The notes under the pieces were generated by a model that saw only the letters and a list, made by a program, of their open reading frames with translations, ran no database searches and was not told the DNA's origin. Below are positions 57,383 to 63,880 of a stretch of 64,000 nucleotides of DNA, one piece after another. The DNA comes from Certhia americana (lineage: Eukaryota > Chordata > Aves > Passeriformes > Certhiidae), in contig CM031864.1 of assembly GCA_018697195.1 (NCBI GenBank), positions 11,186,758 to 11,250,757 on the forward strand, read 5' to 3'. Position numbers and translations under genes: made by a program. How positions within the stretch are numbered: position 1 is the stretch's first letter; each line of letters begins with the position of its first letter.

Positions 57383-57452
57383 ACGGTTGGCGTGTAGTCT
57401 GCTGCCTGGGCAGTACCTCCACCTGTACAGAAGGACTGGGAATGGCGGTCTC
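57383..57452 (-). CDS. PTPRF: PTPRF probable last coding exon, degraded
   Basis: Only about half of the expected final 23 codons can be aligned: GGAG-TAC-TG, GCAGC, GACTACACGCCAAC, corresponding to EYLGSFDHYAT with several indels. The acceptor is ambiguous between two CAG/GAG positions at 57450-57454. The stop codon is not certain. Confidence 0.45.
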
Positions 57453-60400
57453 TGCCTCAGAGGGACCCATCTCCACTCCTAACATCCCACCCCACCCGCG
57501 ACTGAGTAAAGCACTGTTACTTTGCATAGTGTTTCGAAGCATGCCAATGTACGCCAGTTGCGTGCTCTGTAGCACATCTGGTACTACGGCCTGCAAGTGC
57601 CGCAATGAGGGACACCTGCATAGCATTGGACAACCAGGACAGTGGTCTTGAGGGCACAGCCAGAGACATCATCCCCTCCCTTCTCCCAGATAATCTCCAT
57701 TGCCATGCACAGGAGGGGTTTTACCTCTGCTGCACCATGGCCGTCCGCTGTTCCGCCGGCTTCACATCGGACATGTCACCACGCTGCCCCCGGCCCTCGT
57801 CGCTCCTCTCCAGCACATGCCCTGAGTGTGATGAACAACCGGTGCGCCCAACCCAGCACTGCACAGGGACAAGAGGGGCCATTGATTCCTGCCAGCCTCA
57901 AAAGGCTCTTGCAGAGCTCCTAGACGTGGGCAGAGCCGCTCCTAGAGCCCAGACTCTCACTGGGGAAGCTGACTCCTCCTTACCTGCAGTGCACTGGTGA
58001 TGGGCCCATCCTGCCCAAAACTGCTCCTTGGTCTTGGTGCACCTGCCCATGAAGTCAATGACACCCGCTCCTGTCTTTGGCACGCCCTCTCAGCCATCCT
58101 TTGAACTGGAACCTGGCGATGTTCCGAGACTGCCGTCCTGCCAGGGAGAGGGTGTTAGATGTGAACTACTGGTGAGGGCCTGATGATGTCCTTGCCCTCA
58201 CACTGATCTCCAACCTGCTCTCAGACCCCCTGAACCAGACCAGTTGATAAGGTGCACAGGCTACGATAGCCCATGTCAGATCTATTGCTGCATGTTGGGA
58301 CTGTCTCGTTCTCCCATTTTCACTCAGGGTGCTGAGCTGAGGAGGGCCTTTGGGGTCCCTAACATGGTCCATTGGGTCCAGGTTTTTGGGCCTCCCACCC
58401 TATGACCATGTTTACTGTAACACAAGGGTCCTTCACCCCCATTCATATGCGCACACCAGACTCCAGGTGCAGGGTGAACCTGTTTTATAAACACTTGCCA
58501 AGTGAGCAAGCACAGCAAGGCAGGATCTGGTGCTGACCAGGGATCCTGATCTGCTCATCGGGGCTGACAACAGCTAGCAGGCATGAACCTTGGAGAGAGG
58601 AGCAGAGGTTTGGCCAGCAGCCCTATTTGCCTGCCTTCCAAGGCATCATTTGCTTTCCCATTTCTTCAGGGGTTCCTCCTTACTGTCTTGGGTAAGGGCA
58701 GAGCTGGGGAGCCAGCAGCTGCCTCACCCTTGCTCTGTCACCTTGAACTCCCGGAAGGATGTACTGTGCATTTGTACTCTGCCAGGGTCCCACCACGAAG
58801 TACTGGTAGCGGCAAGCGCCTCTGCAGGCCATTACTGTGGCAACTTCTCCTGTTGATTAGGAGGCAGGTAAGACATCGCACTGACCCTGCTGTTTCTTCT
58901 CCCTCCCCCCCCTGGAGGCCTATGTGGTTGTGGCCACAGGGTCAGGCTCCAGACATTGGGGGTCTTATTCAGAGCGCGTGGTGCTAAACACAACTGAGAG
59001 CCCAAGAGCTCAGCCCAACAGATAGAAGTCCCATAGCCCCCTTCCTCACCCACAGCAGGACTCGTAACCCCCGGCCCATCTCACGCAGCTTTGTCAGCAT
59101 CACCACAATGGGGAGTTGTGCTCCAGCGCCTCCGCCAAATCCTCTGTGGTCTCCGCCATTGGTCCCTGTGTGGCGATGTAGGCCTTCTGATGCCTGTGAC
59201 AACACTAATTGTGCTCAGAGCAGCTCCTCAGAGCTGGGCAGCAGCTGCTCCTGGGGTCGGTGAGCTGGGTGAGCTTGATGCAGGTCCCCATGGTACCAAG
59301 GAGCAAGGCTGACAATCCCAGATGTAGGAGGCATGTTTCTAGGAAGGACCCTGGGCTCTAGAAAGAAGGATGAGCCTGTCCAGTAACTCATCTTCTAAGT
59401 GCGCTCCACAGACACAGTTATCACAACAATGGAGGATCCCAAAAGCTCTTAGGCGTTTGCTGGGCTGATGCATCACCCATCGCAGCCTCTTGCGCTGGCT
59501 TTTGCACTGAGTCCCTCTTGGCACCCAACCCCCACTAGCAGCCTTCCAGCACAATCAAAACACCTGGGCTGGAAGAGAGATGTGCTGGAGTATGATCCCA
59601 GCATCACCCTGTGTTTCTGCACTTTAACTCTCTGCATAACCCCCCGTCCCTCCACTGCGGGGAAAACACAGAGCATCTGAACCCTGTCACCTGGATTACA
59701 TATTCCAGACAATAACAAGGTCAGCTTGGAAACCATGATACGTTTTGGGCTGCTTTTTCCTAAAGCTTCAGAATTGTTCTGTTCCACGCCAGCATAAACC
59801 TCTCCTAATTTTCGTGGTACCCTGTTCCCAGACTACCTCCCCGCACCCTGAAGAAAGCCCCTTGGTGCTTTTGGCCTCCCTCTTGCATGCTTGGGCTGTG
59901 GCTCTTCCGAGCTCCCATCATAGCCGGTCTGGCTCCACCACTGCGGTGCCTCTGGAGCCCGCGGACCGGGCTGGCTTCTGTCCGCCTCCTCCCTCTGTTT
60001 CGTCCTGCTTCCCTCTCTGTTGCTATTTTTAATGGGCTAAAAATTAATGAACATGCTGCATGGCAGCTTTGCAACATGCGGGATGCAGACAGGGGTGCTT
60101 CAGGGATATAACAAATCCCCTAAAAACAGAATGGTGATGCAGACCAAGTGAAAAGCTATAAGATGCAGCATCAAGGATAGCGGCGGGATCGTGGGCTAAC
60201 TGATTTCTTTAGTACTAGAACATGGTTGGTTCAGGGAAGGAGGAAAGTAACAGACCTTGGGGATGGGTAAGTACACATGACATTGTAACCATCAGTGTGA
60301 TGGCACCCTCACCCTTCCTCCACAGCAAGCACCAAGAGGCAAAGCCAGGTTGCTCCCATCACTCTGGAGCCAAGACCTGGCTTGCAGTCCATCTGTCCAG

Positions 60401-63400: not shown

Positions 63401-63880
63401 GGTGGACCAGGGCCGACACTAATCTTTACAATCAAAATTTTAAATCACTGCCTACCTGCTTTAAAACACCCAAAGGAATAACTGTCCTGAATGATCCATA
63501 GCCCACTTCTGTCTCCCAACCCCCAGATGATCCGCCCGTGGATTCTGTGGGGCAGAGAGAGGGCACTAGAGAATGGGGTGCTAGGCGCTGCCACCAACCT
63601 TGATTCCGAGCTCCGATTGGAGTACACTCTCAGCCTGGTGGCACCTGGTCAGCTTCTGGATTGGGCAAAGAGTTGCGTGCAGCACCTCGTGTTGCCACAC
63701 GTGGCGTTCCTCCACATGCCTCATGGATGACGAGTACTGGTCCTCTGTCTTCACATGTAGTTTTCGCTGGAGGCATTCGCACGTCACGTGTCCGTAGATG
63801 TCCACGGTCTCTCGTGCTTCCATTCCGCTCCACGCAGTCATCGATGACGATGACTCAGACCGTTTCTGCCCACGCCAGCA
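57383..63880 (-). CDS. PTPRF: PTPRF (LAR-type receptor tyrosine phosphatase), 3' exons, indel-disrupted
   Basis: The gene encodes a cell-adhesion-linked receptor phosphatase with two cytoplasmic phosphatase domains, the active D1 and the pseudo-catalytic D2. Six exons covering the end of D1 and nearly all of D2 can be placed in order, plus a doubtful last exon. Readable pieces include ETVDIYGHVTC and KTEDQY in D1, and KAYIATQGP, IVVMLTKLREMGR, PKTGAGVIDFMG and KTKEQF in D2. Splice junctions are kept, but every exon carries several one- or two-base indels and is 1-9 nt shorter than its mammalian counterpart, so no exon reads through. PTPRS or PTPRD cannot be excluded by sequence, but position next to KDM4A favours PTPRF. 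It is either a decayed gene or unpolished long-read sequence; the second seems likelier. Confidence 0.82.
57725..57858 (-). CDS. PTPRF: PTPRF exon: D2 signature loop and QTVKTLR region
   Basis: GTGCAG acceptor, then GCTGGGTTGGGCGCACCGG (second half of the D2 signature), FITLS-like and VLER-like pieces in shifting frames, and PAMVQ before a GTAAAA donor. 134 nt against 136 expected. Confidence 0.75.
57984..58137 (-). CDS. PTPRF: PTPRF exon: D2 with PKTGxGxIDF
   Basis: After a GGCAG acceptor, the family's DGQSRTIRQFQF stretch is recognisable with shifts. PKTGAGVIDFMGRCTKTKEQ is then in one frame, and the expected ITVHC is disturbed before a GTAAGG donor. 154 nt against 155 expected. Confidence 0.85.
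58728..58849 (-). CDS. PTPRF: PTPRF exon: D2, EKCHQYWP to EFKVT
   Basis: AG acceptor, then GAGAAGTTGCCACAG (expected EKCHQYW, disrupted), RYQYFVV in frame, PQYIL or a shifted equivalent, and REFKVT before a GTGAGG donor. 122 nt against 126 expected. Confidence 0.8.
59071..59193 (-). CDS. PTPRF: PTPRF exon: D2, KAYIATQGP to KLREMGR
   Basis: After a CAG acceptor, HQKAYIATQGPMAETTED is read cleanly. One or more bases are then lost where FWRMLWEHNS is expected. IVVMLTKLREMGR follows in a second frame. The donor reads GGGTTACG instead of a clear GT(A/G)AG and may itself contain an error. 123 nt against 127 expected. Confidence 0.85.
59194..61857 (-). other. PTPRF: PTPRF intron within D2 coding region
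   Basis: No exon of the LAR family is missing between the flanking exons, so the stretch is intron. I see no recognisable gene or repeat in it. Confidence 0.6.
61858..62027 (-). CDS. PTPRF: PTPRF exon: start of phosphatase domain D2
   Basis: Across three frames it reads as the D2 opening: FISAN, NRLVNI, MPYE, RVCLQ, IRG and YINAS, ending GATGGCTACAG before a GTAAAG donor. It is 170 nt against about 179 expected, with scattered deletions. Confidence 0.8.
62028..63598 (-). other. PTPRF: PTPRF intron between D1 and D2 exons
   Basis: The flanking exons adjoin in the mammalian protein, so no coding sequence is expected. I recognise none. Confidence 0.6.
63599..63880 (-). CDS. PTPRF: PTPRF exon: end of phosphatase domain D1 and D1-D2 linker
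   Basis: The acceptor CCCCCGCAG is followed by GCTGGCGTGGGCAGA, the second half of the HCSAGVGRTG catalytic signature. Then come VDIYGHVTC, KTEDQY and IQKLT, before a GTTGGT donor. It is 282 nt, where 286 is expected. At least eight small indels shift the frame. Confidence 0.85.

Follow-up and report, generated by a model that had tools for sequence, protein, structure and literature searches.

Broken PTPRF exons beside an N run in the Certhia americana assembly are almost certainly a sequencing artefact, with an intact version on an unplaced contig

The window analyzed here, a 64,000-nucleotide stretch of the Certhia americana genome (C8:11186758–11250757, where C8 is CM031864.1), contains the 3′ region of PTPRF with every exon broken. 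This appearance is, with very little doubt, a sequencing artefact beside an N run, in which PTPRF sequence carries read-type error and the good version of the locus lies on another contig, C228. Window 57383–63880 would be genuine PTPRF sequence rendered with about 12% error, within an error-rich stretch that spans 10.6 kb or more and runs up to an N run of scaffold C8. The sequence on either side of this run appears to carry the signature of unpolished PacBio-type single-molecule reads, on opposite strands, the likely route being either that raw reads extended the contig ends into the gap or that contig ends built from few reads stayed unpolished. The well-assembled locus with intact exons would then have been left standing apart as the unplaced C228.

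Global alignment to the exons of C228 placed seven PTPRF coding exons in the window, on the minus strand and in gene order, between 57,517 and 63,880 (Table 1). The earlier note, made from the letters of this DNA alone, had recognized the order correctly but counted six LAR-family exons. Its description of splice junctions nearly all kept agrees with the alignment, in which AG is found at the mapped place of all seven acceptors and GT is in place at five of the six internal donors, the remaining GT being shifted by an insertion. Several indels are found in each of the seven exons, with totals of 36 mismatches, 55 deletion events, and 27 insertion events over 1078 bp; 81 of the 82 indels are 1–2 bases long, as that note had also described, and one is of 10 bases. 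Six of the exons have a net change in length that is not divisible by three, and five of the seven contain a premature stop when read in the expected frame. A search of the genome for the phosphatase family (best 150 of 195 candidates) gave 145 matches, none of which lies within the window.

Table 1. Features of the window, with positions counted from its first base
Feature	Position	Strand	Remarks
Left version of the stretch flanking the 692-base N run	4865–8862		83–84% identical to 9558–13455
N run, 692 bases	8866–9557		
Right version of the stretch flanking the 692-base N run	9558–13455		
KDM4A-type exons, open JmjN, JmjC, PHD-like, and Tudor frames (Pfam)	32128–51000	-	adjoining PTPRF
Repeat copy, gap-rich compared with relatives	52682–53199		left of the reach of C228
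Error-rich version of PTPRF 3′ region	53396–63999		better version at C228:30152–41018 (reverse strand)
PTPRF last coding exon	57517–57590	-	frame broken; 5 mismatches, 1 deletion, 5 insertion events
PTPRF D2 P-loop exon	57725–57858	-	frame broken; 2 mismatches, 13 deletion, 2 insertion events
PTPRF D2 exon	57984–58137	-	frame broken; 6 mismatches, 5 deletion, 4 insertion events
PTPRF D2 exon	58728–58849	-	frame broken; 2 mismatches, 7 deletion, 4 insertion events
PTPRF D2 exon	59071–59193	-	frame broken; 4 mismatches, 3 deletion events
Interspersed repeat, control within the error-rich stretch	61104–61379		compared with six relatives
PTPRF exon, D1-D2 linker and D2 start	61858–62027	-	frame broken inside, net -9; 5 mismatches, 11 deletion, 2 insertion events
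PTPRF exon, D1 P-loop and end of D1	63599–63880	-	frame broken; 12 mismatches, 15 deletion, 10 insertion events

The genome searched comprises 1.067 Gb in 652 contigs. With window 56000–64000 as the query, C228 was the sole other near-full-length match among the best 40 of 500 candidates (87%, 8670 bits), a similarity far above chance, and 38 of those 40 correspond to a repeat inside the query. C228 is 41,018 bp in length, without any N, and its match to the error-rich stretch extends over the interval given in Table 1 at 87% (∼88% identity in global alignment). When reverse-complemented, C228 corresponds from its first base onward to window 53396–63999 and, up to its last base but one, to C8 beyond the N run (88%), with ∼21 kb of the contig falling between the two matches; C228 thus bridges the N run. 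The run itself is 39,212 bases long and starts at the base directly after the window (C8:11250758–11289969). We infer that this N run and the one at window 8866–9557 are assembly gaps, although this one could in principle be something else. Its length looks overstated compared with the ∼21 kb supplied by C228.

This genome does contain PTPRF, on C228, and its catalytic part, as far as examined, is open there. All seven exons are open on this contig, with GT-AG at every junction, and their splice of 1077 bases encodes 358 amino acids and a stop. Three further D1 exons bordered by AG and GT are found upstream of these, and the open frames still further upstream were taken by eye to be the first part of D1 and the juxtamembrane part. 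The tandem D1 and D2 phosphatase domains of PTPRF each contain an HCSAGVGR loop on C228, where the D2 loop lies within the 358 residues and the D1 loop spans two exons; the corresponding frames of the window version are broken. Among the 60 rows shown of 275 in a comparison with solved structures, the 358 residues are closer to LAR (1lar, 979.2 bits) and PTPRF (6kr4, 979.1 bits) than to PTPRS (2fh7, 947.0 bits), and the only PTPRD row among these 60, 6kip, is a shorter chain, which makes that comparison unequal.

In other vertebrates, KDM4A lies next to PTPRF. Exons of KDM4A type adjoin PTPRF in the window (∼32–51 kb) on the same strand, so the expected syntenic place proposed earlier is supported on one side. 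Of ten frames submitted to a Pfam search, six matched a KDM4-type domain family and four matched no family. Two JmjC matches in the window carry one stop each, which probably falls at an exon edge, in a part of the match that extends beyond the open frame. A GC-rich stretch is present at 50–52 kb.

The differences between the two versions were counted over both flanks of the N run. The left flank (window 53396–63999) has 9849 matches, 420 mismatches, 523 deletion events, and 240 insertion events against C228, and the right flank (C8 past the N run) 8363, 330, 413, and 187, respectively; identity per 250-base bin ranges from 0.846 to 0.924 on the left and from 0.821 to 0.942 on the right. Exons and non-coding DNA are affected at equal rates, with mismatches of 3.3 and 3.9%, deletion events of 5.1 and 4.8%, and insertion events of 2.5 and 2.2%, respectively; this, and the large N run that the stretch adjoins, go beyond what the earlier note had noticed. 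Two sets of repeat copies from the same genome, of six loci and of five loci (one near-identical locus dropped), served as controls. Indel events outnumber substitutions by a factor of 1.82 in both flanks, compared with 0.10 and 0.18 in the controls, which bears out the earlier remark that indels dominate, and the ratio of transitions to transversions (Ts/Tv) is 0.15 and 0.22 in the flanks, compared with 2.44 and 1.64 in the controls. The evolutionary spectrum of a unitary pseudogene, with Ts/Tv above 1 and few indels, is thus not what was found.

The two flanks have error spectra that mirror each other. The leading changes from C228 to the scaffold are G>T (157), A>C (98), and T>G (54) in the left flank, and C>A (91), T>G (77), and A>C (52), the complements of the left-flank set, in the right flank. 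Across all twelve classes of change, the two spectra correlate with r = 0.97 when one of them is complemented and 0.11 when neither is. The bases lost from the scaffold follow the same pattern, with G 230, A 191, T 120, and C 57 on the left and T 159, C 158, A 91, and G 54 on the right. All 13 bins of roughly 1500 bases show the same sign for G>T versus C>A and for lost G versus lost C; the one remaining bin, with about 100 bases and counts of one and none and of one and one, is too small to tell. Each flank therefore has errors of one strand, with opposite strands on the two sides, which is the mirrored, strand-asymmetric spectrum expected of a raw long-read artefact. The mirroring also suggests that the errors sit in the scaffold, since errors of a single read in C228 would keep one sign at both ends. 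Because of the indel excess, the transversion excess, and the strand asymmetry, the differences between C8 and C228 are not evolutionary, and they fit raw long reads rather than divergence.

Comparison with paralogues and repeat copies gave a further indication of which version is correct. Where PTPRS and PTPRD agree with each other at an exonic substitution, 22 of 22 sites favour C228. Taken alone, PTPRS agrees with C228 at 31 sites, with the window at 0, and with neither at 5, and PTPRD agrees with C228 at 24, with the window at 3, and with neither at 4 of the 31 sites scored. The repeat at 61104–61379, which we take to be CR1-like, was compared with six relatives, to which the window copy is 79–81% identical and the C228 copy 90–92%. 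Gap events per 100 columns are 5.8–7.0 for the window copy and 0.3–1.0 for the C228 copy, compared with 0–1.7 in the 15 pairs of relatives. In these sequence comparisons, paralogues and repeat copies both back the C228 version.

A recent loss of PTPRF in this lineage, with the gene decayed by mutation at its old place, would account for the broken frames of all seven window exons. The same assembly, however, holds open exons on a contig that matches both sides of the N run, the error spectrum with its indel excess and strand mirror misfits mutation, and non-coding DNA is affected as much as coding, which leaves such a loss extremely improbable. A unitary pseudogene has no intact copy in the genome, whereas seven open exons lie on C228. 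That two versions exist would equally be expected if C8 held a decayed duplicate and C228 the working copy elsewhere. This reading is just as hard to credit, given that it meets the same spectral evidence, that C228 connects the sequence left and right of the N run, and that the left flank contains only 56 transitions in about 10,270 aligned pairs, so that ordinary transition divergence is about half a percent at most. The error spectra, together with the open exons of C228, led us to reject both readings. It would likewise be very surprising if the C8 version were the other parental chromosome with a real PTPRF lesion hidden by the errors, the individual then being heterozygous for a broken allele. 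The analysis gave no evidence of a PTPRF loss, and none of the papers listed in a literature search on such a loss in birds concerns it, judged by title and opening lines of the abstract. The preference for unpolished sequence over gene loss, already expressed in the earlier note, is accordingly strengthened by the intact C228 version, the raw-read-like spectra, and the support from paralogues and repeats.

On the left, the errors seem to extend to about 52.7 kb or further. The end of the C228 match at 53396 was considered as the start of the bad stretch and rejected, as the first 250-base bin is only 90% identical and the repeat at 52682–53199 is gap-rich. For this repeat, gap events per 100 columns number 7.6–8.7 in comparisons with six relatives and 2.5–3.9 among the relatives, a range that omits one near-identical pair and a comparison that is unmatched, because the controls are less diverged (77–81% versus 70–72%). 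Since the KDM4A-type frames at ∼32–51 kb are open and this repeat is gap-rich, the start of the bad stretch probably lies in the interval from about 51.0 to 52.7 kb. When window 50000–53395 was searched against the genome, no second near-full copy appeared among the best 40 of 3958 candidates. The near-identical pair of relatives consists of loci L038 (C336:26211–26763) and L039 (C27:6795532–6796084), which are 99.8% identical, compared with 77–81% for other pairs; C336 could be a redundant fragment of C27.

A second N run, of 692 bases, interrupts the window near its start, and about 4 kb is present on either side of it in two versions whose differences are transversion-rich (Ts 35, Tv 159). 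The right copy lacks 104 A, 86 G, 52 T, and 39 C, the same bias as in window 53396–63999, and for this reason it is probably the noisier one; the left copy may also be noisy. The pair is probably a false duplication left where a gap was not closed. The earlier suspicion that 9558–13459 is faulty as well was thus well founded, as this stretch is a second version of 4865–8862 across the N run with the same bias in its missing bases.

The PacBio platform and the extension of a gap are both steps that we infer. In the available part of a benchmark study (PMC7671305), PacBio reads show an excess of A/C and G/T transversions and Nanopore reads one of transitions, and the portion at hand of a Nanopore study (PMC8486125) agrees that Nanopore errors are transition-rich. 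Because A/C and G/T exchanges, the type reported for PacBio, dominate here, raw PacBio-type reads at contig ends are the likeliest source. A Nanopore origin was rejected, its transition-rich errors, as these accounts give them, being the opposite of those in the C8 flanks. Raw PacBio RS II reads are insertion-rich in the same part of the benchmark (8% versus 3%; PMC7671305), whereas deletion events exceed insertion events by ∼2:1 in both flanks (523/240 left, 413/187 right), and the artefact is therefore not assigned to that platform version.

Placement of the raw reads by a gap-extending program is somewhat more probable than contig ends that the long-read assembly itself left unpolished; the two alternatives amount to read error and differ only in the step at which it entered. 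The errors of one strand throughout each flank fit very few reads, the transversions argue against Nanopore (PMC7671305 and PMC8486125, as far as their available text goes), and the ∼4 kb on both sides of the 692-base N run resembles the overfilled gaps of PBJelly (PMC3504050, in its accessible part), although the same picture would come from contig ends with a depth of one or few reads, and the deletion excess is atypical of RS II reads. Under either step, the locus is a clear case of a conserved gene that annotation could report as lost, with raw-read sequence flanking a scaffold gap and the good contig unplaced. A mirrored, transversion-rich spectrum across a gap offers a simple test that requires no reads, provided that the assembly holds a second version of the locus.

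False gene losses are documented in vertebrate assemblies, with frameshifts among their types and GC-rich regions among their causes, according to the available text of PMC9516821, the main text of which, as far as available, does not contain PTPRF. There, as here, a conserved gene appears broken by false indels. The errors described in that text arose in earlier Sanger and Illumina assemblies, whereas C8 has raw long-read-like sequence beside an N run and a good contig left unplaced. The PBJelly authors describe an overfilled gap as one in which two extensions exceed the gap and yet have no identifiable overlap (PMC3504050, in the part at hand), and in a bird-of-paradise assembly, as its accessible text relates, gaps were extended with long reads, completeness scores fell, and polishing restored them (PMC7757076). 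Those portions of the two papers likewise describe gap ends that are both extended by long reads, unmerged, and of low base accuracy; for the present genome, the use of such a program would be the corresponding step. As for PTPRF (LAR) itself, the 358 residues from C228 pair with 1lar from end to end in an alignment shown gap-free; the part examined is without notable difference, and it is the window version that differs, through its errors.
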